Origin: a bacterium | GTDB taxonomy: Bacteria; SM23-31; JAUVVT01 | Length of the DNA: 9,555 nucleotides | Direction of reading: 5' to 3' | NCBI GenBank assembly: GCA_030616165.1 | Contig: JAUWXV010000143.1 | Span: 1-9,555 of the forward strand | Part shown: piece after piece, positions 1,088 to 9,555 of the stretch | Position numbering within the stretch: the first letter of the stretch is position 1 | Layout of the letters: every line of letters starts with the position of its first letter | Notes under the pieces: model-generated | Database searches by the model: none | The model's input: only the letters and a program-made list of their open reading frames with translations | Told to the model about the DNA's origin: nothing | Position numbers and translations under genes: made by a program

Positions 1088-2413
1088 TTACTCAGTTTCT
1101 GCTAATCCTTCTTTTATTAATAGGTCTTTCCATTCCCCTAAATAATCTACGCCTTCAAGTCCTATTAATTCTTTATATTCTTCTACTCCCTTATTCAAAT
1201 CATCCAATATCATTTTATCGGATGATGAAACAAATTCAAATTCGGTTTTCTTTCTTTGCAAATAATGTCTTAAACAATGTTCTTTTGTTTCCCGAATTGG
1301 ATAGAATTTACTAGGATTTTTTTCTGAACGTTTATCTTTCCCAAATAAAGCAAATTTACTTATATCACCATTTAATGTCTCTTTACATTCTCTGCAATTA
1401 CATACATTTAAATGGAATGTTTCTGTATCTTCTAACCACTTTTTTTTCTTAAAATATTTAACTGCCTTTTTATAATTAACCCTATTATGAAGTAATGGTA
1501 TATAATACTTTGCTAAAGGAACTCCTCCTCCTACCGGTAGTATCGGTCTATGTTCACCAAATTCTGGACCATGTGCAACGCCAGAAAAAGAGTTTAATTT
1601 CTCAGCAGTAATGATTGAAAAATAACTTCCATGAAGATTTATTACTTCTTTAGTGTTTTCCTTCCTTAAACCTCTTGCAAGTTTAAGAAGTCCTTTAAGC
1701 TCTGTGCTTCCAGCCTGATGCTCATCCAGATCATCTACCCAGATGATAAACCCATCTAATTCAATTCCTGAAAATTCATCAACTATATTTTGAATTATTT
1801 TATCATTTACTAACACCCCTTTGCCTATAGCAATTTCTGAAAATATTTTTTCACGTTCTTTTTTTAACTCAATAGCTATTTTTACAGACTTTATCATTTT
1901 AGGCAACCAAGCATTAATAGTTCTTTCTGTCATAAAAAAATATGGCGCTATTAAGGCATAGGGTTTGAGATCATTCACAGATTTTTCTAAATATTTATTT
2001 GCATCTGATTCTATCATTCTTTTACTTAATGTATCTCTCTGAAAATCCATACATTTTTGCACAAAATCCTTAAGCGTTTTCCCTTCATTTAAATCTTCGG
2101 GAAGTAATGGGTCTTCACCTAATTTATCTTTAATTAAATCTCCATATTCATCTGCTAAATTCTTAACCGATTTTTTAATGTTTCCTTCACTATCAATAAT
2201 TGTCGAAGGGTCATGTTGAAATGCATGTGTTAAAGGATCAATTATGTATCGTATATCCTTTGTTTTTTCTAATAAAAATGCAGCTAATCCTTCAGGCGCA
2301 TATGCAACCATATTACCATTAATTACTACTCCTGTATATGTATCTACCGTAGGATATACAAAAAAGCGTTGTTCAGCAAATGTTCCGAATACCATCCAAT
2401 GATCAACTGACAT
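1088..2413 (-). CDS. TGT-like (tRNA/DNA-guanine transglycosylase-like) TIM-barrel protein
   Basis: A 441-residue protein, last gene of the four-gene operon. The start is ATG 2413, which has GGAGGAG seven bases upstream and overlaps the preceding gene by 11 bases; a longer frame from 2470 lacks such a site. Features suggesting the queuine/archaeosine transglycosylase superfamily are a run of strand-like segments (YIIDPLTHAF at 56-65, DGFIIWVDDLD at 220-230, VINLHGSYFSI at 257-267, PVGGGVPLAKYYIP at 293-306) and a Cys cluster C338-x-C340-x2-C343 with H379 and H383 further on, resembling the TGT zinc site. TGTs swap guanine for a 7-deazaguanine base; DpdA relatives do this on DNA. I do not see the usual GGLAVGE or DxFDC motifs, so the catalytic residues are not assigned and activity is inferred. 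No 7-deazaguanine biosynthesis gene is in the window. It could be a divergent barrel enzyme with another role. Confidence 0.5.
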   Translation of the reverse strand: MSVDHWMVFGTFAEQRFFVYPTVDTYTGVVINGNMVAYAPEGLAAFLLEKTKDIRYIIDPLTHAFQHDPSTIIDSEGNIKKSVKNLADEYGDLIKDKLGEDPLLPEDLNEGKTLKDFVQKCMDFQRDTLSKRMIESDANKYLEKSVNDLKPYALIAPYFFMTERTINAWLPKMIKSVKIAIELKKEREKIFSEIAIGKGVLVNDKIIQNIVDEFSGIELDGFIIWVDDLDEHQAGSTELKGLLKLARGLRKENTKEVINLHGSYFSIITAEKLNSFSGVAHGPEFGEHRPILPVGGGVPLAKYYIPLLHNRVNYKKAVKYFKKKKWLEDTETFHLNVCNCRECKETLNGDISKFALFGKDKRSEKNPSKFYPIRETKEHCLRHYLQRKKTEFEFVSSSDKMILDDLNKGVEEYKELIGLEGVDYLGEWKDLLIKEGLAETE

Positions 2414-2840
2414 ATTCAATCTCCTCCATATTTTTTCGGAGATGCCTTTGTTGTGGACACCAAACCCCATAATTTCTTCTTGCTTTTAAAACTAACTCGC
2501 AATTCTTTCTTTTTTTCTTAAAATGTACAATACCAATTCCTAAGTCTTTAGCTTTTCCATAGAACAAATCAGAAACACTAACAGTTGCAATCACTATATA
2601 GATATAATCTGCTACAAGAGAATGAGCATTACATTGTTTAATAGCTCTTTTCCAATCCTTAGTTTTGACTTCAAAAAAGGTTATCCATCTTCCTCTAGTT
2701 GCTGCTACATCTACATTTTGTCCCATATTGGGAACTTCTTTCTGTATCCTATAACCCTGCTTTTTTAAAAAATTAATAAAGTATTCAATAATTTCAGCTT
2801 CAGTAATAGTTCTATTCTTTTCAGCCATACTGTTTTTCAT
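2403..2840 (-). CDS. PD-(D/E)XK nuclease-like protein
   Basis: A 145-residue protein of the restriction-endonuclease fold. An N-terminal helix (EAEIIEYFINFLKKQGYRI, with E15) is followed by the core VDVAATRGRWITFFEVKT, giving D44 and E57-x-K59 as metal-binding and catalytic residues, and then Q69 in the next helix (KRAIKQCNAH), the layout seen in Hjc/Mrr-like and small holding-type nucleases. A later strand (GIGIVHFKKK) completes a typical small alpha/beta nuclease. The C-terminal tail is basic. The start is uncertain: ATG 2840 or ATG 2828 (the latter overlaps the upstream stop as ATGGCTGA); neither has a strong Shine-Dalgarno, consistent with translational coupling to the membrane-protein gene. 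It overlaps the downstream TGT-like gene by 11 bases. It probably cleaves or binds nucleic acid as part of the operon's system; the substrate is unknown. Confidence 0.6.
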   Translation of the reverse strand: MKNSMAEKNRTITEAEIIEYFINFLKKQGYRIQKEVPNMGQNVDVAATRGRWITFFEVKTKDWKRAIKQCNAHSLVADYIYIVIATVSVSDLFYGKAKDLGIGIVHFKKKRKNCELVLKARRNYGVWCPQQRHLRKNMEEIEYVS

Positions 2841-3366
2841 AGTTATCTAACTCATTATTTCTTTTTCTAATTTTTACCATTAGTATTATCTGTAGAGCAA
2901 CCACTAAAATAGAAACAACTGCTGTATAAACTCTTATTTTGGGAAAAATTACAAAAAGGAATAGGCATATTATTGCTATAATTACACTATATAATAAAAC
3001 ATTAAAATATACTTTTATTTTTTGATACAAATTTTCAAGTTTTCCAATAATAGTAAAAGTCCTATAGCTTTCTGCACTATATTGTCCAATTATACTTGTT
3101 TTTTCGTTTGGGATAACGTCATCTCTAAGTAATATAATCCGATCAATTTTAGTTTCTTCTGAAAAAGTTGAAAATATTTTGTAATGGTATTCAGATAATT
3201 TTTGAAATAAACATTGTTTTAGTAATTTAATTCTATCATTAAATTTTTCTTCTGATATAATCCACTGCTTAAAAATGGATGTCAAACCACCCAAAATGAT
3301 AGAAGATAAAATTGAATATATTGCAGCAGAACTCAATATTTCTTTTGCATTTTTACTAAAACTCAT
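2821..3366 (-). CDS. Three-helix membrane protein, possible membrane effector
   Basis: A 181-residue protein. The start is ATG 3366, with AAAAGG six bases upstream and overlapping the preceding gene by 11 bases; a longer frame from 3426 has no such support. Hydrophobic segments are at about 11-32 (ILSSIILGGL), 120-141 (YSVIIAIICLFLFVIF) and 146-165 (VVSILVVALQIILMV). A soluble, helical, charged stretch of about 85 residues separates the first from the closely spaced second and third. The tail (RKRNNELDNYEKQ) is charged. Small helical-hairpin membrane proteins of this sort, such as SLATT-domain proteins, serve as membrane-disrupting effectors in several bacterial conflict systems; membership is inferred from topology and context, not from a signature. 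A structural or signalling membrane anchor is the alternative. Its position between a sensor-like protein and a nuclease makes it a candidate effector or localiser. Confidence 0.5.
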   Translation of the reverse strand: MSFSKNAKEILSSAAIYSILSSIILGGLTSIFKQWIISEEKFNDRIKLLKQCLFQKLSEYHYKIFSTFSEETKIDRIILLRDDVIPNEKTSIIGQYSAESYRTFTIIGKLENLYQKIKVYFNVLLYSVIIAIICLFLFVIFPKIRVYTAVVSILVVALQIILMVKIRKRNNELDNYEKQYG

Positions 3367-3958
3367 GAAGAACCTTTTCCTTAATTGTTGATTTTTTCTT
3401 GTGTTCAGGATACTTTTTATAAACATATTGCAATATAGCTCTCAAAGGAGTTGTTGAAGTCCTATTCTTAAATTCTTTTAATAGTTTGCACTGTGATTTT
3501 GAAAGAGTTTTATATAATTCAGAAGTATAATCTTCACCTTTTTTAGTTAATTTAAATTCTTCTTCTTGGTATTCACCACATTTTTCTGTTCCTAACATAA
3601 AATTTATTCCTGATGCATCTTCCTCCCATTCCTGCTCACTTAAAGCTTCCTCTATTAGAATTTCTTGAGAGGGTGATGACTCAATGAAATCTCTTAACAT
3701 GAAAAATGTAATGTCATCATAAACTTCACGAGAAAAAGGACCGAAAAGCCACGGGATAAATTGATAGATATCATCTGAGTTGATTTCAATATTTTTCTTA
3801 AATACAGGCCAAACTTCATGCTGAAATATAAAAAGCATTTTCATCAGTCTTGTACGCCCACTTATCGGTTCGTTAAATGAATCACCTTTCCCAGGCGAAT
3901 ATAATAACAGTAATAAAATATCCTTTCTGTTGTTTATTGTTTTTTTTGATACATTCAT
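3356..3958 (-). CDS. YwgA/Panacea-like protein, first gene of four-gene operon
   Basis: A 200-residue soluble protein. The ATG at 3958 has AGGGGG four bases upstream. The N-terminal half has GRTRLMKMLFIFQHEV (34-49) and FIPWLFGPFSREVYDDI (67-83), matching the pattern of YwgA-like and Panacea/DUF4065-type proteins: a conserved GxTxLxKLxFL helix, then (F/Y)xxxxxGPFSxxxxxDL. A segment LTKKGEDYTSEL precedes a C-terminal helical region (TTPLRAILQYVYKKYPEHKK). Relatives act as antitoxins or occur as accessory proteins in defence loci; no catalytic residues are evident. Being first in the operon and followed by a membrane protein that overlaps it by 11 bases, it may be the regulator or sensor of the module. 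Family placement is by eye and of moderate certainty; the link to defence is inference. Confidence 0.5.
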   Translation of the reverse strand: MNVSKKTINNRKDILLLLLYSPGKGDSFNEPISGRTRLMKMLFIFQHEVWPVFKKNIEINSDDIYQFIPWLFGPFSREVYDDITFFMLRDFIESSPSQEILIEEALSEQEWEEDASGINFMLGTEKCGEYQEEEFKLTKKGEDYTSELYKTLSKSQCKLLKEFKNRTSTTPLRAILQYVYKKYPEHKKKSTIKEKVLHEF

Positions 3959-4075: not shown

Positions 4076-4285
4076 TTAAGACCTGGTGCGTCTTGTCTTT
4101 TTAGTAGCAATAATAAATGCCATGCTTCGTTTCTGACACCAACTTTTAGCTGCCTCATGTTTGCGAATAGTATCGGGATTGTCCATGAATTGTCCACCTT
4201 TAACCTCGTGTAATTCCTTCTTCTCATCTATTCTTTCTACAAGAAAATCTGGACGATATCCCCTTACATTGCCTTTTAATTGCAT
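4076..4285 (-). CDS. Small PD-(D/E)XK nuclease-like protein after the RM genes, possibly frameshifted
   Basis: This frame encodes 69 residues with a compact nuclease core: YRPDFLVE (D13), then ELHEVKGG (E27-x-K29), then a helix (TIRKHEAAKSWCQKRSMAF) and strand FIIATKK. The pattern resembles TnsA-like or type III restriction nuclease domains (PDFxx, ExK, then Kxx and AAxxWC), but it is much shorter than those proteins. The ATG at 4285 is preceded directly by an in-frame TAA and has only a weak GAG upstream. A better-placed ATG at 4310, with AAGG six bases before it and just after the endonuclease stop, starts MNFENEIINAIKRQCKG in another frame and ends after 28 codons. Deleting one G of GGGG near 4266-4269 joins the two as QCKGYRPDFLVE, about 77 residues. 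It lies 8 bases after the endonuclease gene and probably belongs to that unit; its role is unknown. Confidence 0.4.
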   Translation of the reverse strand: MQLKGNVRGYRPDFLVERIDEKKELHEVKGGQFMDNPDTIRKHEAAKSWCQKRSMAFIIATKKTRRTRS

Positions 4286-7007: not shown

Positions 7008-7784
7008 TCAATAATATTGTGTTCCGTGTTTTATATGGTAATCAATATTTCTCTCTTTACAGTATTTTATAACTGATAAAGAAAGACTATTATAATATTC
7101 TCTGTTATTTTTGAATTCGGAAATTTCAGAGTTATAGTTTAAACGACCAAATATAATCTTGTCCACAAAAGAAACAGTTTCTAGTATTTTTATTAAATCT
7201 TGCTTTATCAAATTAGGTGTAGGATATGGCTCAATACTTACCCAAGTCTTAAATCCTTTTTCATGTAAATATCTAAGCGAATTAATTCTCACTTTAAAAG
7301 GAGCAGAATTAGGCTCATATTTTTTTCTAAAGTTCTCATTTAGCGAAACTAATGTAATTCCGTATTCGTTATTTATACTACAACCATTTCTTTTTGCAAG
7401 ACCTATTGGATAAATCCCCTTTGTTAAAACAGTACATTTGATTCCATTAATATTTAGTTTATCTATTATTTTAAGGCTCAATTCAGATACTTCTTTCTGA
7501 TTAAACATAAAAGGATCGGTTGAAAAGCATAAATGAACAAATTTAATTCTATTTTTATATTTAGGTATCTCTCTATCTAACAACTCTAAAGCATTTGAAA
7601 CAATTTTAGGACGACGCCATTCTTCATAGGTCTTTATGACACCACATCTTTTTTTCATCATGTATGCATAACAGGGATATTTACAGCCATGCGAACATCC
7701 TTCGACATGGTTTAAACAAAAATCAGCGTATTCTACGCCACTTTTATATAAAAGTGTTCTTCTCTTTATAGAATTTAGTTTCAT
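7008..7784 (-). CDS. SplB-like radical-SAM-type protein with CX3CX3C, partner of TcmP
   Basis: A 258-residue protein resembling the spore-photoproduct-lyase/DNA-repair-photolyase branch of radical SAM enzymes. The cluster motif is GCSHGCKYPCYAY, with C30, C34 and C38: SplB-like proteins have GCxHGCxYCYA (CX3CX2C), so this one has an extra Pro before the third Cys. Later barrel features are FVHLCFSTDPF (about 83-93), a strand CTVLTKG (about 117-123), GITLVSLNENF, and WVSIEPYPTP (about 182-191). A conserved SAM-binding or iron-sulphur role is inferred; whether CX3CX3C holds a 4Fe-4S cluster is not certain. Such Cys-rich proteins commonly sit beside TcmP, the three-Cys-motif partner. The ATG overlaps the tcmP stop by four bases (ATGA), so the two are translated together; they share the LexA-controlled transcript. 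Substrate unknown. Confidence 0.6.
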   Translation of the reverse strand: MKLNSIKRRTLLYKSGVEYADFCLNHVEGCSHGCKYPCYAYMMKKRCGVIKTYEEWRRPKIVSNALELLDREIPKYKNRIKFVHLCFSTDPFMFNQKEVSELSLKIIDKLNINGIKCTVLTKGIYPIGLAKRNGCSINNEYGITLVSLNENFRKKYEPNSAPFKVRINSLRYLHEKGFKTWVSIEPYPTPNLIKQDLIKILETVSFVDKIIFGRLNYNSEISEFKNNREYYNSLSLSVIKYCKERNIDYHIKHGTQYY

Positions 7785-8671
7785 TTTACACTGAAGCCCA
7801 CTTCAAATGGACAGTCTTCAAATAGCGTTCCTTTGAATAGTTTTTTCGTAAAAATATCCTTCATTATTCTTTCCCCAGAAGCATAGTTAGTAGCAAATAA
7901 TAGATTATAAATAGTTCCAGATCTATCTGGATAAGGAACATTAAAGTTTAGAATGAATTTATAGTTTTTACTAAAAACCTGCTGTATAAAATGCTCCAGT
8001 AATTCTTTATCATTTTTATCAGCCCAACTGGTATCGCCAAATAACTTGTTCATATGTGACACCATTTTGATTGCCATAGTTCTAATTTTTTCATCTCTAT
8101 GTCCGATATTTTTATATTGCCTACTTACTCTTTGGATTCCCATCTTCATATAATTCAAGAATATTTCTGTTGACCCTTTTCTATTTATTATCATATCAAT
8201 AGTTTCTTTTGAAATTCCTCTTATACCATATGGGTCAATGAAGAAAAATGCAGGTGCATTAGAAATCATTTTAAGTACATTAGGAATTGCCTTTTCAAAT
8301 TCATTCTCAATTAACTTCACTTCTATTTCATTTCCAGGAATTAATTCTTTTATGAAATTTTCTAAATCAGCCATATTTTCTTTATTCGAATCTATTGCGA
8401 TGATATCTAAATTAAAATTTTTCCCTTTCTTTTGTTTCATTTTTTTAATTTCAATTGCTGTTTCTAAACCTATTATTGGAGAACCAGATATAGAATCTTG
8501 TTTTGTTCCATTATGGTACTTCCCACGACCTGCGAAACAATCAATAAAATATGCCCTTGGGAAATACGAACCAATAATAATTGCCCATGCTTTTAGATAT
8601 TTTCTAAAAATATCCAATTTAATTTGAGTTTGTTGTTTATCTTTTATATCCCAGATATCATCTTTTACCAT
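7781..8671 (-). CDS. tcmP: Three-Cys-motif partner protein TcmP
   Basis: A 296-residue protein of the TcmP family, named for its neighbouring three-Cys-motif protein. It has a Rossmann-like methyltransferase fold: FIDCFAGRGKY at 42-52 fits the SAM-binding glycine loop, IAID at 91-94 fits the acidic end of strand two, and FFIDPYG at 143-149 sits where methyltransferases carry motif IV. The N-terminal KLDIFRKYLKAWA (18-30) is also typical. The length fits the family. The activity is not established; SAM-dependent modification of nucleic acid is a reasonable reading. The ATG at 8671 lies 19 bases after the lexA stop with AGGGG just upstream, and its stop overlaps the next ATG by four bases. It is thus the middle gene of an SOS-controlled operon. 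Confidence 0.7.
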   Translation of the reverse strand: MVKDDIWDIKDKQQTQIKLDIFRKYLKAWAIIIGSYFPRAYFIDCFAGRGKYHNGTKQDSISGSPIIGLETAIEIKKMKQKKGKNFNLDIIAIDSNKENMADLENFIKELIPGNEIEVKLIENEFEKAIPNVLKMISNAPAFFFIDPYGIRGISKETIDMIINRKGSTEIFLNYMKMGIQRVSRQYKNIGHRDEKIRTMAIKMVSHMNKLFGDTSWADKNDKELLEHFIQQVFSKNYKFILNFNVPYPDRSGTIYNLLFATNYASGERIMKDIFTKKLFKGTLFEDCPFEVGFSVK

Positions 8672-9380: not shown

Positions 9381-9460
9381 GAGGTTAGAAAAAATTCTTT
9401 ATTTTAGTAAACTTATAGGGCTAAAATTTTAGGTTGGCGTGAAATTGGTTTGTTACGAGA

Positions 9461-9555
9461 GAGTCTTGGGGTCCGGCTCGCTCGCTTCCGCCCTCCGGGC
9501 TCATCCTCCCATTGGTCGGCGCTCGCGAGCGTTCGAGTTGCCAATGAGGCTTGGG
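9461..9555. repeat. GC-rich, hairpin-rich non-coding block, right side
   Basis: This block is sharply richer in G and C than its surroundings. It contains the 12-base palindrome CGCTCGCGAGCG (9520-9531) nested within CATTGG (9510-9515) and CCAATG (9541-9546), so it can form a long hairpin. No gene is seen. The 80 bases between the lexA promoter and this block (9381-9460) hold nothing recognised. TCGCGAGC also occurs in the left block near 433. Confidence 0.4.

Follow-up and report, generated by a model that had tools for sequence, protein, structure and literature searches.

A gene core shared by bacteria and archaea, with an exchangeable gene slot, as a candidate mobile anti-virus module

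The window, that is, the whole stretch of 9,555 nucleotides analysed here, carries four overlapping genes on its minus strand, in the order A-B-C-D between positions 3958 and 1088. With a probability of roughly 0.6, we favor reading this operon as a mobile module that defends against viruses by abortive infection, with the division of roles proposed below. Taken separately, it is nearly certain that the four genes constitute a module of one functional unit, very likely that the module serves in anti-virus defence, and likely that it acts by an abortive mechanism with an exchangeable killer. A sequence-only reading of the same DNA had located the genes and their order correctly and suggested that they may be an undescribed defence module; synteny, predicted folds, and an exchangeable slot argue for that suggestion. 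The genes and motifs are as follows.

3356-3958, minus strand: gene A, 200 aa, the longest ORF being also the supported one
2821-3426, minus strand: gene B, longest ORF, 201 aa
2821..3366, minus strand: gene B from the homologue-supported start at 3366, 181 aa
2403-2840, minus strand: gene C, longest ORF
2403..2828, minus strand: gene C from the homologue-supported start at 2828, 141 aa
1088-2470, minus strand: gene D, longest ORF
1088..2413, minus strand: gene D from the homologue-supported start at 2413, 441 aa
2664..2672, minus strand: ExK catalytic motif (EVK) of C
2216..2239, minus strand: DPxTxxFQ motif of D, residues 59-66, predicted end of barrel strand 3
1385..1402, minus strand: CxCxxC zinc motif of D (C338, C340, and C343, with H383)

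Comparison with homologues puts the probable true starts at 3958 for A, 3366 for B, 2828 for C, and 2413 for D, and the start of the longest ORF of D (2470) is probably too far upstream. With the homologue-supported starts, the overlaps claimed in the sequence-only reading are 11 bp (A/B), 8 bp (B/C), and 11 bp (C/D), and the C/D overlap of 11 bp is also seen in L010-L016 and L018. The ribosome-binding sites it mentioned are visible as GGGGG before A and GGAGGAG just upstream of 2413, and its CxCxxC and ExK motifs are found at the positions listed above. As to the single promoter named in the sequence-only reading, a promoter scan gives 17 promoter-like sites, against 18.3 expected by chance; a terminator scan is likewise at or near chance. 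All four genes are under purifying selection, with dN/dS values of 0.05-0.17 in the closest pair of relatives. Chance ORFs are rejected because of this selection and the conservation across phyla; an artefact of one binned genome is also rejected.

A profile search with gene D only in 84,980 species genomes gave 28 loci. They are distributed over Planctomycetota, Pseudomonadota, Kryptoniota, Acidobacteriota, Patescibacteria groups, Bacillota (Moorella mulderi, Thermanaeromonas, and Symbiobacterium), Bacteroidota, Verrucomicrobiota, and Electryoneota, together with one archaeon, and the module as a whole ranges over at least 10 bacterial phyla and archaea. Individual phylum assignments may err, since most loci are metagenome bins; the isolates are Moorella mulderi, Arthrobacter, and the Haloarcula plasmids. 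In this D-only search, A and C lie upstream of D in 25 of the 26 loci whose contig extends that far, L021 and L036 being outside the 26 with contigs that begin within D. The lone exception, L033, is a decayed copy with no A and a truncated D. A, C, and D are thus the obligate conserved core, and the recurrence of the gene order in unrelated phyla is far beyond chance. Synteny across phyla, which the sequence-only reading had proposed as a check, was found in these 25 loci, on plasmids, and in a prophage, and this co-occurrence supports its view of the genes as one system.

The plasmid and prophage copies should be noted. A tblastn search with D found all four genes on the Arthrobacter plasmid pSI-1, with the order and overlaps of the window (BLAST E-values against the window of 3e-17 for A, 1e-5 for C, and 1e-15 for D); gene B of pSI-1 resembles that of the window in topology only. 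A third copy comes from another genome, and the A-C-D set is also present on Haloarcula plasmids. A profile scan of viral contigs found a copy on a prophage contig, between a repressor and an integrase with RusA nearby. Phages often carry defence cargo between repressor and integrase. Neither a scan of viral contigs with a single protein nor a search of phage records gave a match. The module is rare, occurring in 2 of 386 genomes in one set (including that of the window) and 2 of 296 in another; the phylum of the window is represented by only six genomes in the comparison set and was uninformative. In the D tree, the Planctomycetota sequences are scattered over five separate places. Judging from this scatter and the plasmid and prophage copies, the module moves horizontally.

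The restriction system noted beside the operon in the sequence-only reading is indeed there, as a TdeIII-type restriction enzyme and a methyltransferase. Restriction genes are also found near L014, L020, L031, and L076, though such neighbours occur at a minority of loci and are counted here as raw occurrences. Positions 4076-4285, which lie between the module and this restriction enzyme, encode a short TnsA-like endonuclease N-terminal fragment (PF08722), probably a remnant. At 7008-8671, a radical SAM protein directly follows TcmP, its three-Cys-motif partner (TIGR04474, 5e-46), on the same strand; the pair matches the PADLOC candidates PDC-M30/M41, adjoins LexA, and is a second possible conflict pair. 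The contig is AT-rich except for a GC-rich stretch at either end (321-476 and 9460-9555); these two stretches may be repeats that delimit an island.

The interval between A and C differs among loci, holding a three-TM protein, no gene, or a PIN protein (in the archaeal locus L037). The three-TM type is found in 19 loci (the window and 18 others, L044 included), and most of these share three equally spaced hydrophobic segments while the sequence is hardly conserved. The label of a three-helix membrane protein given earlier to B is therefore right, and B appears to be a fast-evolving three-TM membrane protein and a putative killer. It weakly matches the SMODS-associated 4TM effector (PADLOC, 3.6e-5). 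All nine bacterial loci lacking B have an SIR2-like protein of about 400 aa (protein E) immediately after D; one of them, L021, whose contig does not reach C, is classed among the nine by its SIR2 gene. In the 17 B loci that could be assessed, no SIR2 gene directly follows D. The mutual exclusion gives p of about 3e-7 if the loci are independent, but all nine loci with SIR2 fall into a single clade in the tree of D, so that the exchange is a single swap in bacteria and the p value overstates independence.

Protein E matches Pfam SIR2_2/SIR2 (PF13289 in L026, L032, and L071) and also sirtuin structures. Its GAGF and LHGS motifs and four zinc Cys residues are invariant, NWD is near-invariant, and the catalytic His is present. 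These residues place protein E in the SIR2 family, with motifs for NAD binding and the catalytic His. On both flanks of the Moorella mulderi module lies a dense conflict island (L026:1482-3953 and 9823-13323), which encodes a TPR-SIR2 protein, a further A-like protein preceded by an HD-domain protein, and an additional SIR2-like protein.

The archaeal plasmids and one distant locus add further arrangements. On pHsi540 of Haloarcula sinaiiensis, a different SIR2 protein follows D (PF13289, 2.8e-24), with no match to the bacterial SIR2 profile. In Haloarcula sp. JP-L23, another, unrelated gene follows D (L076:5388-6605); its product has a zinc ribbon and an ExQ nuclease-like stretch, looks CoiA-like by eye, and is possibly another effector. 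On Haloarcula marismortui pNG400, no killer is recognised immediately next to A-C-D, and an HNH endonuclease gene lies divergent to the set (L005:3013-3768). At L043:5528-7843, a distant relative of D, with the TGT fold and CxCxxC, is followed by a PIN gene and by a C-like nuclease that is convergent and carries a helical insert; gene A is not recognised at this locus, a possible second subtype. One slot thus takes a three-TM protein, a SIR2 protein, or a PIN protein as alternatives, an exchange that the sequence-only reading had missed. The repeated replacement by known toxic types suggests that the slot protein is an effector, and is the strongest argument for such a role.

The AF2 model of A (pLDDT 86) is best matched by the DarG antitoxin domain 7yk3_B (Z 8.7, 149 residues, rmsd 4.4), a moderate Z just over the level of common arrangements; Foldseek gives probabilities of 0.99-1.0 for the same domain. 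Pfam Panacea is weak in A of the window (0.02). The SocA_Panacea scores, 16.2 bits for A of the window and 25.0 bits (3.8e-5) for A of L037, are under the cut-off of 25.7 bits. Of the Panacea-like label given earlier to A, the DarG-C-terminal/Panacea-like fold stands, whereas membership of Pfam SocA_Panacea falls below the gathering score. The PADLOC candidate PDC-M19A matches A in 27 of 27 relatives; no description of it was found in the open-access literature or family databases. The model points to a winged-helix protein, a putative regulator or antitoxin-like sensor. Panacea antitoxins partner membrane toxins and have been proposed as sensors (PMC10440598). Many matches to A alone, haloarchaeal and from Listeria, occur without C and D, so that the domain of A has a wide distribution and is not diagnostic. 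On Halorussus plasmids (L006:3962-5063 and L070:3477-4553), an A-like gene is paired with one for a membrane protein while C and D are missing, an arrangement like that of two-gene toxin-antitoxin systems. The same apparent pair of a Panacea antitoxin and a RelE/HigB-like protein lies near the module in two phyla (L016:3035-4223 and L018:9755-10895).

These features of A raise the alternative of a PanAT- or DarTG-like addiction module, in which A would be the antitoxin, the B, SIR2, or PIN protein the toxin, and C and D accessory regulators, with defence secondary. The resemblance of A to the DarG toxin-binding domain and weakly to Panacea, the Halorussus pairs, and the plasmid location of several module copies are consistent with it. 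However, in the SIR2 loci, A keeps to C-D though no toxin adjoins A, and C and D are not optional, because their catalytic or pocket residues are conserved. We regard an addiction module as unlikely.

In C, the catalytic set E10, D40, E53xK55, and Q65 is invariant among 26 sequences, and weak profile matches are found to UPF0102 and structures of the Holliday-junction-resolvase type. The earlier PD-(D/E)XK label fits, with the full E...D...ExK...Q set present, and C is, judging from these residues, a PD-(D/E)XK nuclease with catalytic residues intact.

The identity of D is resolved solely by its predicted fold, since family and sequence searches were empty: Pfam, NCBIfam, PHROGs, and PADLOC yield no family, the TGT family PF01702 matches none of 27 D members, hhalign of the D profile against canonical TGTs gives a probability of 1%, and a sequence search of solved structures gave no match. 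The AF2 model (pLDDT 92) is a TIM barrel with an inserted CxCxxC...H zinc site. VIA-align matches it to archaeosine TGT with Z 21.8 over 300 residues, and the top 50 entries are all TGT; Foldseek also ranks other barrels. A TGT fold is thus predicted with confidence for D, and the TGT-like label is right at the level of this modelled fold. In the hhalign comparison, CxCxxC is aligned to the zinc motif of TGT. C338, C340, and C343 are kept in 27 of 28 aligned sequences and H383 in 29 of 29; the zinc motif is missing in L002 and L034.

The residues lining the barrel should also be noted. D59, P60, F65, and Q66 are invariant in 29 sequences, and D59-P-x-T-x-x-F-Q66 occupies the position of DSGGFQ in TGT, the strand position being taken from the AF2 model. 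At the end of strand 8, where TGT has its nucleophile Asp, residue 283 of D is P, L, V, or I, as placed by eye from motif spacing; E287 and R289 are conserved instead. Conserved residues lie at the C-terminal strand ends in 12 of 25 cases (p 0.012), against 3 of 25 at the opposite face. These strand ends hold the active sites of barrel enzymes, which argues that the pocket of D is under selection. We consider D a putative nucleic-acid or base recogniser; base exchange or marking, as proposed in the sequence-only reading, is not favoured by its conserved residues.

Such marking is central to a Dpd-like restriction-modification alternative, in which D would mark host DNA with 7-deazaguanine, C would cut unmarked DNA, and the fourth protein would be a back-up. 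It agrees with the TGT fold of D, as in DpdA, the TGT homologue of Dpd, and with the nuclease residues of C. In contrast, the strand-8 nucleophile position (283, by-eye mapping) is not a conserved acid, profile comparison fails to detect D as TGT, and no preQ0-synthesis or Dpd-type partner recurs, SIR2 being the only recurrent extra neighbour. This alternative seems improbable. Ordinary tRNA modification was considered and rejected. A housekeeping or stress operon for RNA modification or repair with a TGT relative would fit the fold and zinc site of D, but the module is rare, patchy, cross-phylum, and plasmid- or prophage-borne, its SIR2, PIN, and TM partners are exchangeable, and the host genome encodes a canonical TGT elsewhere; we give such an operon very little credence.

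The sequence-only reading recognised no named system, and an already named system is rejected here, since no matching paper was found in the open-access literature and none matched in the family databases either, though a prior description is possible. The core combination of a TGT fold, a PD-(D/E)XK nuclease, and a DarG-like regulator was not found in any system described in the open-access literature, where the only TGT-containing defence systems found were Dpd and the BREX-related capture system (BRC), with different partners. Like the module, Dpd unites a TGT-superfamily protein with nuclease activity in a defence island that is mobile; however, preQ0 genes or DpdB/C-type partners do not recur across the loci, D of this module escapes TGT profiles and PADLOC, and neither A nor the swappable killer corresponds to a component of Dpd. 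A TGT homologue also occurs in BRC, a predicted defence operon formed around PglZ, a DUF6079 ATPase, HerA/FtsK, and a STAND ATPase (PMC12839542); none of these is recognised among the recurrent partners of the module. The DarG-C-terminal/Panacea-like fold of A is shared with PanAT and DarTG, whereas in the module A is tied to a nuclease and a TGT-fold protein in a three-gene core, with no DarT and no macrodomain.

The slot proteins also have known relatives. SIR2 NADase effectors (Thoeris ThsA, DSR2, HerA-SIR2, and pAgo-SIR2) have a SIR2-like domain with NAD-site and catalytic-His motifs as in protein E; they couple to TIR, ATPase, or Argonaute sensors, unlike protein E, which has an extra zinc ribbon and is coupled to A-C-D. 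B recalls CBASS in that it weakly matches the 4TM effector domain, but no nucleotide cyclase is recognised among the recurrent genes and B has three predicted TM helices. The exchange of killers itself resembles CBASS or Argonaute immunity.

In the favored reading of an abortive anti-virus module, D, with its TGT fold and zinc site, would bind viral or virus-altered nucleic acid and recognise a base, and C would cut or process the nucleic acid bound by D. By analogy to the DarG toxin-binding domain, A would restrain the killer and let it go once D and C engage their target. The membrane would then be permeabilised (B, in the window), NAD+ depleted (SIR2), or RNA cut (PIN). The roles of A as inhibitor and D as sensor are drawn by analogy, and the exact division of labour among the parts is tentative, its details being rather more apt to be revised than kept. 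A bolder reading, which we consider possible and on balance unlikely, is a new class of immune system, in which D is a TGT-fold base reader sensing a virus-specific base state, C cuts, and A signals membrane, SIR2, or PIN killers; the base state may be 7-deazaguanine or an otherwise modified guanine, or virus-altered tRNA.

The operon thus belongs to a conserved and apparently unnamed gene system of at least 10 bacterial phyla and archaea, and Moorella mulderi, Haloarcula species, and Arthrobacter sp. AK-1 are cultured or sequenced hosts for direct testing. If D senses base identity, the fold that builds queuosine and archaeosine would have been reused as an immune sensor, and the module could act on phages hiding behind modified DNA.
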